Assembly (NCBI GenBank): GCA_963930775.1
Contig: OZ005705.1
Span: 5,394,001-5,458,000 of the forward strand
DNA from: Cliona cf. orientalis
Lineage: Eukaryota > Porifera > Demospongiae > Clionaida > Clionaidae
Direction of reading: 5' to 3'
Length of the DNA stretch: 64,000 nucleotides
Below are positions 1,815 to 64,000 of this stretch, piece by piece. The notes below the pieces were generated by a model, which was given only the letters and a program-made list of their open reading frames with translations, searched no databases and was not told the origin of the DNA. Both the position numbers and the translations under genes were made by a program. Numbering within the stretch: the stretch's first letter is position 1; the number at the start of each line of letters is the position of its first letter.

Positions 1815-3308
1815 TCACTTCCTGGCAAGGGATGTGAGAATTGACTTAGGAGACCTCTCCATAGGTCTGTAATAAAATCTTTTAAATGTGCTGTCTGATG
1901 ACCAGTCGGCAACACTGAGAATATCGGAGACTGACATGCCCTGCATGTTTGCAGCTGTGGCAGCCGCTCCTCTTACTGAATGAGCCTTAAACTCATCTCC
2001 AACTCCAGCCTGATGGATCAATGTCTTAATCCATCTTGCAATTGTAACCTTTTGCACAGGCTTAAAGGGGCGTACCACTGCCAAAAACAGCCTGTCTCTT
2101 GATGATTCAGATTTCCTGTACTCTTGCGTACGTTCGAGATAATGTTGCAGTGTTACCACTGGGCAAAGAATCTTGTCCTCCTTCAAACGTGGGTAGAAAA
2201 GTGAACGTTGCTTCCCAGGACGAGAAGTTTTGGTCAACTGTGCCAAATTAAATTGTACACCTGATGTCACTCTTCTCATGTACTTCACATTAAGTGCATG
2301 AATCTCGGAGGCGCGGCTGGCATTAGCTAATGCCATGATTGTCGCCAGCTTGTGGGTGAGGTCCTTCAGAGTCAATACCTCGTTGTCACCCAATGACCTT
2401 ATGAACTCCAGAACTCTTCCTACGTCCCAAGAGCAGGAGTATCTTGGCTGTGGAGGTCTGCTGTTAAAAATCCCCCTCATGAGCCTAACCACCAGAGGAT
2501 GCTTTCCAATCACAGTGCCATCAATGGGGGGATGTGTCATTGAAATAGCTGAGCGGTATGAATTCAATGTCCTGTACTGCTTGCCCTCAGCAAACTCATG
2601 TGTCAGAAAATCGAGGATTGCCCCTATAGGGGCAGAAAGTTGATTGTATCCATTCTGTTGGCACCAACCTGCCCATCTCCCCCAGTTAGAGGAGTAAGCT
2701 GCCTCTGTATTTGGTCTCCAAGACGCAAGGATAAGCTTTGATGCTCCATCTGAAACTCCTTGACTCTGTAATGAAGACCTGACACAACCCATGCGGCCAG
2801 ATTTAGTGAGCCCTGAAGGATGAGCGGGTGTGTCTCGTTCCTGGGACTCCGCAGTAGCATTGGTCCATTTGGGAGGAGTATTGGCTACCGAATCAACATT
2901 GATGTCATTAGTGGAAACCAAGGTTGTGTTGGCCAAACTGGTGCAATCAACACCAGTTCTGGTACTTTTTCCCTGTTCACTTTGGCCAGACACCTCCCGA
3001 TCAGAGCGAAAGGAGGGAAGGCATAACATCTTGTTTCTGCCCAGTTCTGATCCAGAGCATTTGTCGCTACCGAGTTGGGATCTGGTTTCCAACTGAAATA
3101 TTCTGGGAGCTGTGTCGTCAGCCTTGAAGCGAACAGGTCTATTTGGCATGGACCCAGCCTGGTCATCAGTTGCTTGAAAACTGATGGGTTGAGCTTCCAC
3201 TCCGAGCTGTCCGGCCTTGCTCTGGATTCCTGATCTGCTACTGTATTCAGTTTGCCAGGTAGATGCTCGGCTGAGATGTAAATCTTCCTCTCCATGCACC
3301 AGCCCCAC
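1815..3308 (-). CDS. DIRS tyrosine recombinase
   Basis: Frame of 497 codons; the first ~140 overlap the RT frame and may not belong to the mature protein, so the start is uncertain. The C-terminal half has the tyrosine recombinase catalytic set: Arg in ASRASEIHAL, the HxxR box in HSVRGAAA, and a C-terminal Tyr in FKRFYYRP. A SAM-like N-terminal core segment (NWGRWAGWCQQNGYNQ) precedes it. In DIRS elements this enzyme joins a circular cDNA intermediate to the target without the duplication left by DDE integrases. The frame has no internal stop, so the domain could still be functional. The assignment rests on the residue pattern and linkage to the RT. Confidence 0.85.
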   Translation of the reverse strand: MGLVHGEEDLHLSRASTWQTEYSSRSGIQSKAGQLGVEAQPISFQATDDQAGSMPNRPVRFKADDTAPRIFQLETRSQLGSDKCSGSELGRNKMLCLPSFRSDREVSGQSEQGKSTRTGVDCTSLANTTLVSTNDINVDSVANTPPKWTNATAESQERDTPAHPSGLTKSGRMGCVRSSLQSQGVSDGASKLILASWRPNTEAAYSSNWGRWAGWCQQNGYNQLSAPIGAILDFLTHEFAEGKQYRTLNSYRSAISMTHPPIDGTVIGKHPLVVRLMRGIFNSRPPQPRYSCSWDVGRVLEFIRSLGDNEVLTLKDLTHKLATIMALANASRASEIHALNVKYMRRVTSGVQFNLAQLTKTSRPGKQRSLFYPRLKEDKILCPVVTLQHYLERTQEYRKSESSRDRLFLAVVRPFKPVQKVTIARWIKTLIHQAGVGDEFKAHSVRGAAATAANMQGMSVSDILSVADWSSDSTFKRFYYRPMERSPKSILTSLARK

Positions 3309-4441
3309 ATCTGTGAGGTGATGTCCATCAAAATCTTGGAATGTGTACCCCCTTTTCGATTGATAAAATAGACAGCTGTGATGTTGTCTATTTTCAGATG
3401 AATGTGGGTGTCTGTCTTATCTCTGGCAAATGTCTGGAGAGCAAGGAAGGCTGCTAGTAGTTCCTTGGCATTGATGTGAAGGAGGGTCTCTGAGGCAGAC
3501 CACTGTCCCCCTGTTGCAAGGTTGTTGGAGCATGCCCCCCAACCCGAGTTTGACGCATCTGACTCGATTATCATCGTCGGAGGAGACTGTACTATTGGAC
3601 TGCCATTTTGCCTGGTGAGATGGTCGATCCACCATTTCAGATCCAGAGTGCTCTGATGATTCAGAATCACTACGGATTCGTATGAGTGGTGGCGGTGAAG
3701 AGCATCTATCTTTAGTGCCTGTAGAGCCCGGTAGTGAAGGGGAGCAGGGGGAACTGCAAGATTTGTGGCCACCAGCATGCCCACAAGTCGGGCCAGCTTG
3801 CGTACGGTTGTCACCTTGTCCCGGAGCAAATGGCGACACTCGGATCGAATGTCTCTCATCTTTTGCAGTGGTAGGCTGATGTCCATTCTTACCGAGTCTA
3901 TGATGTAGCCCAAGAATTCCATCTTCTGAGTCGCTATCTGTAATGACTTTTCGGCATTTACTATAAAGCCAAGACTTTCGAGAAGAGATTTCATCTTCAT
4001 GTAAGCTCCTTCTGCTTCTGGCTTCGTCTTGCCTATGATCAGGAAGTCGTCCAGGTATCCGATCAGCCTCACACCTGCCGTCCTCAAATTTGCCAAGACT
4101 GGCTTCAGAAGCTTCGTGAACAGCCTGGGGGCTGTTGCTAGACCGAACGGAAGGGCTGTATACTCGTATACCTTGCCCTGCCAGTGGAACCGAAGAAATC
4201 TCCAGTGGGAGGGATGTACAGGGACTGTCAGGTACGCATCCTTGAGATCCAACTTGCACATGAACTCGTTTCTGCTCAGCAGGTCCTTTATGCATCGTAT
4301 GTCCTCCATTTTGAAGTGCTCGTACTCGAGGAACGTGTTGAGACTCTTCAAATTGAGAATGAGCCGAACCTTCCCACTGGTCTTTGGTACCGTGAATATG
4401 TTGCTCACAAATCCTCCGTGAGGTTCCGTAAGTTGAATCAC
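2885..4441 (-). CDS. DIRS reverse transcriptase / RNase H, 5'-incomplete
   Basis: Continuous frame of 518 codons from a non-ATG codon; it stays open to a TGA at 4484-4486, so the true N-terminus is missing. The RT core shows LNLKSLN, KLDLKDAY and the catalytic YLDD box (residues about 120-125). RNase H follows with an SDASNSGWGA-type segment, KELLA and KIDNITAVYF, then the DLFASR and PVWPTQPWFP segments typical of DIRS polyproteins. Its 3' end overlaps the recombinase frame. The enzyme would copy element RNA into DNA. Coding capacity in the RT-RH core looks intact, but lack of the 5' part and gag argues that this copy is not autonomous. Confidence 0.85.
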   Translation of the reverse strand: MIQLTEPHGGFVSNIFTVPKTSGKVRLILNLKSLNTFLEYEHFKMEDIRCIKDLLSRNEFMCKLDLKDAYLTVPVHPSHWRFLRFHWQGKVYEYTALPFGLATAPRLFTKLLKPVLANLRTAGVRLIGYLDDFLIIGKTKPEAEGAYMKMKSLLESLGFIVNAEKSLQIATQKMEFLGYIIDSVRMDISLPLQKMRDIRSECRHLLRDKVTTVRKLARLVGMLVATNLAVPPAPLHYRALQALKIDALHRHHSYESVVILNHQSTLDLKWWIDHLTRQNGSPIVQSPPTMIIESDASNSGWGACSNNLATGGQWSASETLLHINAKELLAAFLALQTFARDKTDTHIHLKIDNITAVYFINRKGGTHSKILMDITSQMWGWCMERKIYISAEHLPGKLNTVADQESRARPDSSEWKLNPSVFKQLMTRLGPCQIDLFASRLTTQLPEYFSWKPDPNSVATNALDQNWAETRCYAFPPFALIGRCLAKVNREKVPELVLIAPVWPTQPWFPLMTSMLIR

Positions 4442-36960: not shown

Positions 36961-38996
36961 CTACGTGAGCGGTTCTGAATCATCTGTGCTGTGTAGAAAT
37001 GCCGTTAGGGCAAATATTAGGAACACTACACCTCCAATCAGCGTCACTGTACAAGGTGGGAGAGAAAAGGTGATATGAAATGATGGTACTATGACATTCC
37101 CATCCTTACCAGTTCGTACTGATATCCTCTGGGCAACAATCTTTCCTCCAATGACTGCCAGAGCTGTGCACAGCGCATGACCGAGAGTTCCACCCACTGT
37201 CACTCCAATGGGATTCTGCAGTACATCACATAAACCAGTACATTACATATGCACTCTCCCTCCCTCCCGCCCTCACACACTCACACATAGCATGTATGTA
37301 TAGAGATATAGCTATAATATTTATGCACTCAGTAACAATTTACTTTTTTGTGGTTAATAGGTAATTATGATGAAACCTATGGTGTAATCTATGAGGTAAT
37401 TATGAGAAAATTTAGGGCCTCGATGGAGCCCTTCCGGGACTTGAAATTCAGTGAAATATGTAGAGTATTTTGCGCGTGTATCCAGTGAATGCCTTACAAG
37501 CAGTGTGTTGCCTTCTCTGACGAGCAGCGATGGCCGAACTTCACGCGTTCTTTAGGCTGACGTAATCCCGTGGATATATATAGATAGCCCTGCGCTATAT
37601 ATTATAGCACGCACCATGAGCAGCATGCCGCTGGACCAGTCTAGCTGTACTGCGCTGTTGAGTTCTTCTTGAGTTGAAAATTTTCACTATCGAGGTCCAG
37701 AGACACTCTCAGATTCCTGATGATCCGAGGCTAGTCTGCAACTGAGGCGCTGGCCGGCATCATACTATACAGTGAAGTGAACCCACTATATTGATGACAT
37801 TTACCACATACACCATTTCAACTATGCAGCTACTGAGTGCATGGTCAAGTTTTCATTACATCCCCAGTATAAATTTACTTTTTTGCGGTTATTAGGTAAT
37901 TATGTTGTAATTATGATGTAACCTATGTCATCATAGCGCTAAAATTCAGAGCCTTTACAGAACACTTCTCAGACCTGAAAATCCACAGAATCATATATTA
38001 ACTTACATACATATCCAGCGAATACATTAAAAGCTGAGTGCTACTTTCTCCGACAAGTAATGCCAGCTGAACTTCACGCGTTCTCTTGGCTGACGTAATC
38101 CTGTGGATAAATAAAGCTAGCCTTGCGCTATTTATAGCACGCGTCATGCCACGACCGATCTGAAGTTCGGAAGCTGTACTGTGCTGTTGAGTTCATCTCC
38201 TTTGATTGAAGCATCGAAACTCGAAGTCGAAAGTTGATCTTAGACTCCATCTCTGCGATTGAGGCCCCGGCATCGATGTGTGTATTGATGACCTTTACCA
38301 CATGCACCATTAGAACTATGCAGCCACTGGGGATGTGGTCAAGGGTTCATTGTATAATGAAACACTAAAAGAAATACCCCTGGAATAATAAAAATAGTAC
38401 TCACACAAACTGCGACATCCTGAAATGCGATATATCATATAGTAAATTGTAAATTAATAACAATAATTATACTAATTATTGTGGTACACTGTTTTGAGTA
38501 CCACACTCACATAAGCCCACGTCCACAAGGGGAGTTTTAATAATTACTGTATGCCTAACAAGATTAATATACTATAGTGTCCCGGGCAAGCGCTCACTCC
38601 TGGGTAAGCACACATTTCATGGGGCCACTGTACATGTAGCAGCTTCTATATAAACGTATATATGGGATTTTGATCCCGGATTAGCGCCCACGTGGGCCAA
38701 ATCGCGAGTTATGTTTAAGTGCCCATGGGCACTTACCCGGAACACTACGGTATATATACTTTAAATATCACTAATAGAGAACACAAACCACAACACAAGG
38801 CATTACCTCTCTGGCACCGAGAATGATGGTGGTGATTTGTGAGCGATCTCCCCATTCTGCCAGGAATGTGAGGGAGAAGGCCTGAAGAAAGATGGGAGAC
38901 AGAAGTGGACCAAAGCACCGTAACCTTCTCCTCAAAGGAGGGGTACTCGTAAGAGCCTGCTCCACATCTGTAGAACCTGTTGTCAACTGAGATGGA

Positions 38997-39055
<59 letters not shown>

Positions 39056-40708
39056 CTTCAATGACACTGTACTCCTATTATTGTCCTGACAGGTAACAAT
39101 ATATACGTACACAATATCAGTTTTTACACATACCACTTCCTCCTTCTTTCTGAGTTCCTCTGAGACCTCGTCAAACTCCTCCTGTCCTTCATCGGGGCTC
39201 ATGTTCCAGCCCTCATAGAGCATCTTGAGTCCAAACAGGGCTAGGAGGGCGGTGGAGATGTAGAACGTCACAGCTCGAGGAATGATCATCGTAGCAAAAC
39301 CAAGGCACACCGACAGGAAGGTCATGAATGCCAATGCAGAGATTGCCCCACTGAATACAAGCCATCTGTATAGCAATTCATGAGTGTATGATATAGGAGA
39401 TAGTAATCATTGTCTACATGACCTTAACCCCTTCGTTGATAATTAAATTTATCATTGTAAGAAAGGGGTGGGGGATACACCATAGAGCTAGCTACATGTA
39501 GCTAACCAACAATATGCAATGTTACACACCATGTTGACTATACAGCCATCCCTGGAAACATGTTTGTAGATGTATGCCTACTGAATAGCCCCGACAATGT
39601 CATTGTTGTATTGATCACTTTTTAATGCTGCTAACAATAGCACCACTCTCGTTGGTCAAAATGAAGGATCCAATGCCAACAATGCAAACTAAGGATAATT
39701 GGCAGTTTGGCAGTCCTTTATAACCGCCAAAAATTATACACCCATACATAGTAAGGTGAGCCCACACTGAATTGCCAACCATGGGTGGTGCAAATTACCA
39801 AACTTAATTCTCACCCATATTCCTGCAGTACACAAGTAGAATATCACAATGGGGGATCCCTTTTAACAACGTCCTATTAATGAACACAGCATTATAATTC
39901 ATCACCTTGAGTGTTTCATGGCGAGAATTGCTGCAATGAAGAAGGTCTTGTCCCCCAGTTCAGAGACAATAATGACTGAGACAGAGGCTGCAAAGGCATG
40001 AAAGAAACCCAGTGAGGTCTGTTTCTTGCCCTGAGAAGCCTTATCCAGGTCTTCTTTCCCTTCCTGCTGGTTAGTCTTCTCCGGCTTATCTTTCTCTTTA
40101 TCATACGCAGCAGGGTCAACCTGCAAGAGTCAAGAACGGAATGGACATAAGTCTACTGTTGTGAATATTCGGCTATCATTTTTGTCAACATGAGATTCCA
40201 CTGAACTTGGCTACTTAGCAAGTTTGTTGCTTCTACAGGGCATGAACATTGTGGTTTTAATACATGCTATGATATAAAAAGGCTTGGTACCAGATTATTT
40301 ATTAACATGTGTTGTATCTCTATTCTCAGCACAACTCAGGCTGTATAGTTCAGTTAGCTCTATGGTCACAACAACTTGATGTGCAATGAGTTTTAATTAA
40401 AGCACCTGCACTTTCAAGTCTTCCACCTTCCCCTTCTCTCGTAATTCTTCATCCTTCTCATGGTTTATCACTTCAAATTCGTCTCCTTCCTCCAGCTTTC
40501 GTTGGTTCTCCTTCTTCTCCACGACCTCCATCTCCTTCTCCATTTCCTCCTTCTCGATCAAGATGGGCTCCCCGGGGACGTCAACCCCGGCACCGGGAGC
40601 ACGAACACCAGCATCACCTCCTCCTGCCGGCGCCTGGCAGTCAATTATACCAGGCAGCCACACGAGAAAACACACGCAGAGAACGAATTCGAAGAGCTGT
40701 CGGTACAT
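36961..40708 (-). CDS. TMEM165: TMEM165/GDT1 family cation transporter
   Basis: Seven exons: 40708-40406, 40120-39906, 39365-39134, 38986-38807, 38419-38405 (15-nt micro-exon), 37215-37110, 37046-36961. They total 1137 nt and give 378 residues, phases consistent. A cleavable signal (FVLCVCFLVWLPGIIDC) is followed by an acidic, charged N-terminal stretch longer than in human TMEM165 (324 aa). The two family signatures E-x-G-D-[KR]-[ST] appear as ELGDKT (exon 2) and EWGDRS (exon 4), each beginning a membrane triplet. The last exons give GGTLGHALCTALAVIGGKI and a final hydrophobic segment. The family moves Ca2+/Mn2+ against protons in the Golgi and is needed for glycosylation. The micro-exon encodes DVAVC, filling a conserved position (ARED.. 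in vertebrates). It is divergent with the MICU gene. Confidence 0.93.
37339..38353. repeat. Diverged tandem duplication in TMEM165 intron
   Basis: Two ~500 bp units in the same orientation (about 37339-37857 and 37871-38353). Shared landmarks are AATTTACTTTTTTG.GGTTA, CTTCACGCGTTCT, GCTGACGTAATCC.GTGGATA, TGCGCTAT...TATAGCACGC and GACNTTTACCACAT.CACCAT. The units have drifted by many substitutions. No exon was found. Both carry a CRE-like TGACGTAA. Confidence 0.55.
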
Positions 40709-40924
40709 GCTGAGCCAGCTGGGTGATGCGGTTGCACCCAGCGTCGTCGAGTTTAATAATACAGTGTATTATGCAGTACTCTGATGCAGTATATAGAATT
40801 AGAATGGACCATGGAGCGGTGGGCTTCATTTAGGAAGAAAGGAATTTAAGTTCAAAGGTCATCACGACGGCTTCAAAGGTCGAAGTTCATATTTGGGTGG
40901 GCTTTATTTCGGATTCACCTCAGT
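40709..40924. promoter_or_regulatory. Bidirectional promoter, TMEM165 / MICU
   Basis: 216 bp between divergent start codons of a Golgi-type Ca2+/Mn2+ transporter and a mitochondrial Ca2+ uptake regulator. It includes tandem TTCAAAGGTC(A/G) half-site-like motifs (about 40852-40859 and 40871-40880), reminiscent of nuclear-receptor AGGTCA half-sites. Regulation is inference from layout only. Confidence 0.5.
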
Positions 40925-43868
40925 ATGGCCTCTAAATCTCTGCGGGCTTTTCTATTCACTTTCCGTCGAGTATCGGGACCAAGAGGATACCAGAATGGTG
41001 TGAGAATTCAATTGAACGCAAACAGCCGTTCTCTAGTGACGAATTTTTCTAAGACTGGGGGTCAATACCGCCAAGGAGTGAGGCTAGGCCCTCTTATGGG
41101 TGTGGCCACCTTAGCAGCCTCGGGAATCGGCTTTTGGAACTATTTCGGAAGGGAAGAGAGTGAAATTACCCCGGAAAGTCGCCTAGCTCTCTTGCCAAGG
41201 CTTCAAGCTGCTGAGAAAAAGAGCGATGAAGTTCCCAAGAAGAAGGTGTCTCTACGTGAAAAACGCTACAAAATGTTTGCCTCAGTTGTTTACAAGGAAG
41301 AGCCGTACATGACACCTAGGGACTTCATCGAGTCACTTTTGCAGGATGAACCAAGAAGTAAGTTGATCTGACAAACTTGCTGTAGCATTCATACCGGTAC
41401 ATGTAGTTCAATTTGCTTCTATTATTCAGGTCAGTATACGGAGCGTATTGATGAGAGGACCCTCAATAAGAAGCTCAAGTCCACCCCCTCTCGCAGATAC
41501 GGCTCCAGTCACCTGTTCCGAGACATGGAGGATAAGGGTATGGCTTAGTGGTTGTACAAAAGTTCAATTGGGAGTTTTTACGAAACCCACAAGTGCTTTA
41601 GAACTCTAAGCTTGTTTAAGCCCCTTGGCGTCTTAGGTCTTCTATTGAGGTGGCAGACCCACCTAGTGCTACACTGCACTGACCAGGCCCAATTAGACTG
41701 AAATAGCTGTCTGCAGTTGCACTTTTGTTGGTACTCATTTTAGTTTTATGTACATGTAGTCAGTATCCCTTACCTTTCCAACATTCACTTGGTGTAGGTA
41801 TCCTCACGTATGCTGACTATCTGTTTCTGATCACTGCCCTAGTCAGTAAGTCCACGTTACATTTTGGCTGTGTTGCTGTTAGTATAGTGCTGAATACTGT
41901 ACCTGTTTACAGAGACGACTAGGCAGTTTGAGATTGCCTTCAAGATGATCGATGAGGACAAGAGTGACTACATTGACTTGAAGGAGTTTAGCCAAGTCCA
42001 GGAGGCTGTTTCGAGACAGAGGGATCATACTGTGGTTAGATATGATTATGCATGGTGTACCAGAGTGTTTTAACCAACCCGATCACATAAATCTGTATTG
42101 CATCATTTTTTATCGTGCCATCAATTGCAAATTGTTAAAATGCATAAATAAAAATTTTCAAGAGGCTTATTTTGACCAATTTGCAAACTTTTTCACTTGC
42201 ATACTAATGGATCCTAACTGGTAACAGTTCTAAGTACATGTATAGGTGTAATACAATGATCCCCGACAAACCAGAAACTTCCATACCTGATCCCAGAAAC
42301 TTCCATATTTGGATGTCTCATAATAACTCTCTCATACATGTAATACCTACTTTGGTTTGGCGAAGCTACCCACATGTGCTAAGCATTGTAGAGGTGATGC
42401 ACAGTAGCTTTAGTAGACATACATGTAGCTATTCCAGTACCTCCTAATCCTTTCTGTTTTCTAGTTGTTTGAGCAAAGCTTGGCCCAGAGCTCTCTAACA
42501 GTGCACCTGTTTGGCTCCAAAGGCAGGGATCGACTCTACTCCAAAGACTTCTACAAGTGAGTCTGCGACAGTCCACTCCCAGATTAAATTGGATAACTCA
42601 TTATTAATCGCTTTGTGATCCTTTTCCAGATTCATTGAAGATCTGCAAACAGAAGTCCTGGAAGTTGAGATATCCTTTGCTGTGTTTTCCCTTGACACTC
42701 CCACACACACACACTGTAACTTAATTTTTAGCAGAGGTAGTCACATCTATGCATCATATATTTGCCCCTGAGGTATTGCAGGCCCTATGCTCAGTAGGGG
42801 GGGGGGGCATTCAAAACACCAAGCTTGGTGGATATCTTGCACTAATTTAACCAACTGAAGCGGGCAATCCTCATATAACATACATGTACATAGGGAAGGC
42901 CTAAGGAGTTTCGTCGCAGTGGCTGGCTTCCTTGACTCTCTTTCTCACTTCAATAATTACTCGTTGGGTGGTGAGCGATCAGGTACCATCACTGATGAGG
43001 ACTTTGCCCGTATCCTACTGCGTCATACCGCCTGGGACCTAGACCCTGTCCTTCAGCGACTCAGGAAGACACCAAGAAAGGTGAGATAAATAAACTGGTA
43101 CACTGGTAAATATCTCCAATGCCACAGAATTTGTAGTGATTGTATAGGTGTAGTTTTATGGTTTATGCAACCTGTTCTTTCCTTGTGTAATGAAACAATT
43201 ATTATACAGCAATGAGAAAGTGCAATTAGTGTAATCTCGTTATGCGTGAGAGAGCTTTGCTTATAGGATGTTCATAATGTACGGGTTAATTTTTATTAAT
43301 TTTGTTATTCCTCATACTAAAAGGGTGTCAAGTTTGAAGATTTTTGTGACTTTTGTCAGCTGCTCAATTCTCTGGAGGACTTTGGCATAGCCATGACCAT
43401 GTACACCATTGCCGGCACTCCAGTCACACAAGAGGAGTTTGCTAGAGCTGCAAAGGTCTGCATCGGCAAGTCCCTCAACAAGGAGGTCGTCAGCACTGTC
43501 TTTGATATCTTCGACGTGGACGGTGAGTGTATGTGAAGAGAGACAGAGAGAGAATGAGAGAGGGGAAGGGGGGAAGGGGAAGGGAATGATTAATAATCAT
43601 AGTGGTCACTTCTTCCTCAGGTGATGGGCGATTGAGTTACCGTGAATTTCTTGTTGTGATGAAGAACTGGAAATTGAGAGGTTCCAAGGTAACAGTGTTA
43701 CACTGAGCTAAACTTGCAGGCTAAACCGCATGACTGTATGCCCAGAGTCTCTTGTGCAACATCTCTAGTTTGTATATATATCTTGTGTTGCAGATGCGGG
43801 AACACAAGAGCCTAGGTGCATGGGACTCATTCAAGACCTGTATCAAGATGGAAATGAAGAATCGATAA
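40925..43868 (+). CDS. MICU2/3-like: Mitochondrial calcium uptake protein, MICU2/3-like
   Basis: Ten exons: 40925-41357, 41430-41537, 41798-41845, 41913-42034, 42465-42556, 42630-42669, 42949-43080, 43324-43522, 43621-43688, 43794-43868. They total 1317 nt and give 438 residues. The Arg-rich N-terminus (RAFLFTFRRVSG) suits a mitochondrial presequence; a hydrophobic segment lies about 57-75. Family blocks: YMTPRDFIESLL, LTYADYLFLITAL, EF-hand 1 DEDKSDYIDLKE (~210-221), FIEDLQTEVLEVEF, EF-hand 2 DVDGDGRLSYRE (~389-400). Both canonical loops have acidic residues at positions 1, 3 and 12. MICU proteins gate the mitochondrial calcium uniporter from the intermembrane space. MICU3-like features (NLQTEVLEIEF, TVFKIFDVD) fit slightly better than MICU1. 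Intron 6 (42670-42948) is AT-AC. Confidence 0.9.
42670..42948 (+). other. U12-type AT-AC intron in the MICU gene
   Basis: The donor reads ATATCCTTTGC directly after GTTGAG, matching the near-invariant U12 consensus ATATCCTT. The branch-point motif TTCCTTGAC lies 14-22 nt before the 3' end, and the intron ends ...CTCAC before TTCAATAAT. Splicing at these sites keeps phase 0 and gives VEFNNYSLGGERSGTITDEDFA, which follows the family pattern (EIEFLSYSNG...ISEEDFA in MICU3). No GT..AG alternative keeps both frame and homology. Confidence 0.85.

Positions 43869-44133: not shown

Positions 44134-64000
<19,867 letters not shown>

Follow-up and report, generated by a model that had tools for sequence, protein, structure and literature searches.

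The sixth intron of a MICU2/3-type gene in the window (the whole 64 kb stretch of DNA that was analysed, C17:5394001-5458000, to which the positions below refer unless otherwise stated) is very probably a U12-dependent AT-AC spliceosomal intron, removed from the pre-mRNA by the minor spliceosome. The motifs, their spacing, the reading frame, the protein homology and the presence of snRNA genes can be read from the DNA; that the transcript would be spliced in this way, and by the minor spliceosome, is what we infer from them.

The AT-AC intron of the MICU2/3-type gene

The gene, as rebuilt from the sequence, lies on the + strand at 40925..43868 and has 10 coding exons, encoding 438 amino acids. 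Among PDB structures the predicted protein matches MICU3 with 232 bits (1.4e-67) and MICU2 with 207 bits (5.4e-60), compared with 127 bits at best for MICU1 (9.8e-36), and it carries a Pfam EF-hand_1 at residues 383-406, which is the C-terminal EF-hand. On these matches the protein belongs to the MICU family and to its MICU2/3 branch, being nearer to MICU3 and MICU2 than to MICU1. No MICU relative was found in one scan of the genome contigs. The exons, intron 6 and its motifs are as follows.

40925-41357, 41430-41537, 41798-41845, 41913-42034 and 42465-42556, + strand: coding exons 1-5 of the MICU2/3-type gene, from the sequence
42630-42669, 42949-43080, 43324-43522, 43621-43688 and 43794-43868, + strand: coding exons 6-10 of the same gene, from the sequence
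42630..42669, + strand: exon 6, of 40 nt, preceding the putative minor-class intron, 3' end GAA GTT GAG (E V E)
42670..42948, + strand: intron 6, AT-AC, U12-type by its motifs and frame, 279 nt, phase 0
42670..42678, + strand: U12-type 5' splice site ATATCCTTT, 9/9 match to the consensus
42928..42936, + strand: U12-type branch-site motif TTCCTTGAC, 9/9 match to the consensus
42947..42948, + strand: AC 3' splice site, the first AC or AG past the branch motif in the sequence
42949..43080, + strand: exon 7, opening TTC AAT AAT TAC TCG (F N N Y S)

The minor splicing system is rare, and the consensus of its U12-type introns is RTATCCTTT at the 5' splice site and TTCCTTRAY at the branch site. The sequence of intron 6 from 42670 is ATATCCTTTGC, and the only A within its branch motif, at 42935, is followed by 13 intron bases before the 3' end. 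In a passage of PMC3584512 the donor and the branch motif are the defining features of U12-type introns, and 11-13 nt is the optimum distance from branch to 3' splice site, an interval within which intron 6 falls. The preliminary description had proposed that a MICU-family gene carries a U12-type AT-AC intron at this place, and the proposal is borne out by the donor, the branch motif, the AC end and the MICU homology; its figure of 14-22 nt before the end holds for the branch motif, while the branch A itself lies closer to the end. The eight other introns of the gene, whose nearest members had already been described as GT-AG, are all of that type, with donor matches of at most 6/9 and branch matches of at most 7/9. 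A search of both strands of the 64 kb for RTATCCTTT with TTCCTTRAY no more than 3 kb downstream, and then a suitably spaced AC or AG, gave a single site (1 on +, 0 on -), and when the window is modelled as a first-order Markov chain the probability of both motifs occurring together at a fixed donor position is about 2.5e-9. Once the exons are joined, the MICU homology is restored and runs uninterrupted through the phase 0 junction VE|FNNYS, as had been predicted: LQTEVLEVE|FNNYS aligns gap-free to LQTEVLEIEFLSYS of MICU3 and LQTEIQEMEFLQFS of MICU2.

Several observations count against the U12 assignment, namely the pyrimidine-rich tail of the intron, its phase 0 and, in the genome at large, the C at position 14 of U6atac, the unenriched count of U12-type patterns and the U4atac score below cut-off. 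The 20 nt that precede the AC are 0.9 pyrimidine, the branch motif being counted in, whereas according to the passage of PMC3584512 a distinct polypyrimidine tract is absent from U12-type introns; phase 0 is the rarer phase among minor introns, about 22% in an extract of PMC10639083. From AT-AC termini alone the class of an intron cannot be read (PMC2831892, in the portion that treats it), and the pyrimidine-rich 3' end would suit removal of intron 6 by the major (U2) spliceosome, as occurs for some sodium-channel introns. Nevertheless, the sodium-channel U2-type AT-AC introns in that portion of PMC2831892 all have G at +5, where intron 6 has C, the donor of intron 6 fits GTRAGT at 2/6 positions, and a U2 mechanism offers no account of the correctly spaced 9/9 U12 branch motif; we consider this mechanism very unlikely. 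Even less likely is a GT-AG intron with cryptic ends nearby, in which the AT-AC motifs would have arisen by chance: 19 pairs of a GT in 42631-42760 and an AG in 42760-43020 keep the frame open, but every one of them, judged by eye against the homology, loses conserved junction residues or adds unrelated ones, and the chance occurrence of both motifs would have the very low probability given above. The least likely of these alternatives is that the interval is not spliced at all and reflects an assembly artefact or a pseudogene. The splicing of intron 6 is indeed a prediction, yet the ten exons form a single open frame with MICU homology, and an artefact would not produce matched U12 motifs. 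Retention of the intron was also considered and rejected: its 279 nt are a multiple of three, but they include two in-frame stops. A U12-dependent AT-AC intron is the reading that we retain.

A second branch-like motif, TTCCCTTGAC, occurs at 42687-42696, 17 nt from the start of the intron, and a CA repeat follows it at a short distance. The motif is too near the donor to serve any intron that would end at the ACs immediately beyond it, and is probably a chance decoy.

Other features of the window lie outside the MICU gene. A gene of the GDT1 family of divalent cation/proton antiporters occupies 38771-40710 (minus), with Pfam GDT1 in the frame 38771-39376; it appears to stand head-to-head with the MICU gene across a gap of about 0.2 kb, its 5' exon having been read by eye. 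Four tRNA-Asn (GTT) genes are found in 4 kb at 55420-59312, three on the + strand and one on the - strand. At 1815-4441 (minus), overlapping frames encode a tyrosine recombinase of the phage-integrase family together with a reverse transcriptase, as in DIRS-type retrotransposons.

Minor spliceosome components in the genome

The preliminary description had suggested a search of the genome for the U11, U12, U4atac and U6atac snRNAs, and all four kinds were detected with Rfam models in the 216.8 Mb assembly (149 contigs). Two copies of U12 (113.7 and 112.4 bits), two of U6atac (106.7 and 79.7 bits) and one of U11 (95.4 bits) score above cut-off, and one divergent U4atac (L005:1501-1627, minus) scores 48.0 bits, under the Rfam cut-off of 53. 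What makes this candidate credible is the predicted pairing between its 5' end and the genome's own U6atac, which comprises 10, 6 and 2 pairs (-29.3 kcal/mol). U12 retains GAGUAAGGAA, for which the predicted duplex with UUCCUUGACUC has 10 pairs and one bulged A (-11.4 kcal/mol), and U11 retains AAAAGGGC. The U11-48K zinc-finger model gives four matches in the genome. One of them, L020, has a U11-48K-like CHHC finger that matches U11-48K structures (2vy4, 2.4e-5); it is probably U11-48K, a name that is not certain because Gametocyte-specific factor 1 is a slightly stronger match (5.2e-6). A CHHC-type finger is present in L019 too.

With these components, intron 6 would be removed by the U11/U12 di-snRNP and the U4atac/U6atac.U5 tri-snRNP. 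The donor would be paired by U11, and U12, through GAGUAAGGAA, would pair with UUCCUUGACUC, leaving A42935 bulged as the branch nucleophile; the 3' splice site would then be the AC 13 nt downstream of the branch A. The weak link in this scheme would be the U6atac step.

U6atac and the donors of U12-type introns

Capitals in an Rfam consensus mark strongly conserved bases, as in GAAAGGAGAGAAGG of U6atac. Where the consensus has GAAAGGAGAGAAGG, both U6atac copies of this genome have GAAACGAGAGAAGG, which amounts to G14C.

L003:1501-1625 (C7 4528471-4528595), minus strand: U6atac copy 1, from Rfam
L004:1501-1626 (C7 4525801-4525926), minus strand: U6atac copy 2, from Rfam

When the whole genome was searched with a pattern that allows any base at position 14, only these two copies were returned, both with C. 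They are 2.7 kb apart and differ at 1 of their first 92 bases, which points to one duplication rather than two independent events; the L004 copy no longer matches the Rfam model over the 3' distal stem-loop. Given that there are two copies, a sequencing error is an unlikely source of C14.

In the canonical arrangement the GAAAGGAGAGAAGG box pairs with donor positions +4 to +9, an arrangement that is not found with the U6atac of this genome, as C14 in both copies entails the loss of the pair to intron position +6. The predicted duplex between box and donor has an energy of -0.9 kcal/mol, compared with -6.5 for the consensus box, and a hypothetical donor with G at +6 would form a duplex of -5.7 kcal/mol with the C14 U6atac. 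Intron 6 of the MICU2/3-type gene has C at +6. Since C14 cannot pair with this C, either U6atac would act on a mismatched donor helix, or there would be some compensation that was not seen.

The base at +6 was examined across the genome with a donor-branch pattern that leaves +6 free and allows a gap of 45-75 nt. This pattern gave 10 rows, with 9 distinct donors, compared with 11 for a reversed-pattern control, so that the raw count is unenriched and not decisive alone. For the RTATCCTTT form, 7 distinct donors were seen compared with 0.81 expected from a Markov model of window composition, an estimate that may be low by about two, as the reversed control gave 11 where the same model expects 5.6. 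The bases at +6 among the 9 distinct donors are C in 7/9, T in 1, A in 1 and G in 0, and the frequency of C is to be compared with about 24% expected (binomial 0.001). For three of the nine, homology extends across the predicted junction.

L009, at 1501 onward: predicted GT-AG intron in a Tfb4 gene, C at +6, homology across the predicted junction (5e-18)
L015, at 1501 onward: predicted AT-AC intron in a myosin-VII tail, C at +6, homology across the predicted junction (8.7e-12)
L013, at 1501 onward: predicted AT-AC intron in a ZDHHC9-type palmitoyltransferase, C at +6, homology across the predicted junction (8.1e-6)

The Pfam DHHC match of L013 (0.00072) is under its cut-off. The comparison covered only the upstream flank of L016, which gave no homology match, and only a misjoined peptide for L007, where no phase stays open through the junction for more than 23 residues upstream together with 5 downstream; L010 and L012 were left out. 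In L008 and L014 the frame runs open through the junction but neither matches Pfam, and L008 has no PDB match either. The L009, L015 and L013 homologies suggest that further U12-type introns of the same class exist in this genome.

The reading to which we give an even chance is that the only U6atac genes detected have lost the G14-C6 donor pair while C6 persists in the U12-type introns, presumably by virtue of U11 pairing alone, and that the weakened U6atac helix is offset by protein contacts or by a shifted register. The AAAAGGGC kept by U11 would explain the retention of C6 in donors.

Published work and known systems

In the open-access main texts searched, none was found to report a minor intron in a MICU gene, and among the matches listed in broader literature searches none combined a MICU, CBARA1 or EFHA name with a minor-splicing term. 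The fly names looked for were CG4662 and CG4495, which we take to be the MICU genes of that organism. Both are absent from the main text of PMC2952598 and, together with MICU, from that of PMC7644725, and MICU and EFHA are absent from the main text of PMC6717393. MICU and U12-type terms co-occur in PMC10853796 but stand apart in the portions of its text that hold them, and none of the nineteen Drosophila U12 introns tabulated in PMC2831892 is labelled MICU. Likewise, no paper joining U6atac with Amphimedon was found in the literature search, none of the matches listed concerned U6atac in the sponge literature, and sponge, Porifera and Amphimedon are absent from the main text of PMC10639083.

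On its sequence, intron 6 qualifies as a textbook minor intron, a good but ordinary case of a known kind, which supplies one more clean AT-AC intron and a marker with which minor introns can be followed across MICU genes. U6atac raises a wider question. In the relevant passage of PMC4980772, GG14/15 of U6atac faces CC5/6 of the donor, and in CHO cells a CC5/6GG donor is rescued only with matching U6atac: U11 alone does not rescue it, matching U6atac does so partially, and both together restore near wild-type splicing. If our reading of G14C is true, a helix that is important in transfected mammalian cells would have been weakened in nature without donor compensation, and a natural G14C facing unaltered donors would open to experiment the specific question of how far the minor spliceosome depends on the U6atac-donor helix.

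The predicted protein resembles MICU3 and MICU2, EF-hand regulators of the mitochondrial calcium uniporter, which are its best PDB matches and share its C-terminal EF-hand. With U12-type AT-AC introns, intron 6 shares the ATATCCTTT donor, the TTCCTTRAY branch motif, the short branch-to-AC distance and the AC end, and it differs from them by its rarer phase 0 and its pyrimidine-rich tail; the departure from the consensus of such systems is here in the U6atac of the genome and not in the intron. Compared with the human U6atac GG14/15CC suppressor, a laboratory mutant, the C at 14 is natural in this genome, and only position 14 is changed, whereas both positions are changed in the suppressor. Finally, the human suppressor works on a CC5/6GG donor, while no G is present at +6 among the 9 pattern-matched donors of this genome, that is, no matching donor change accompanies its U6atac in the set examined.
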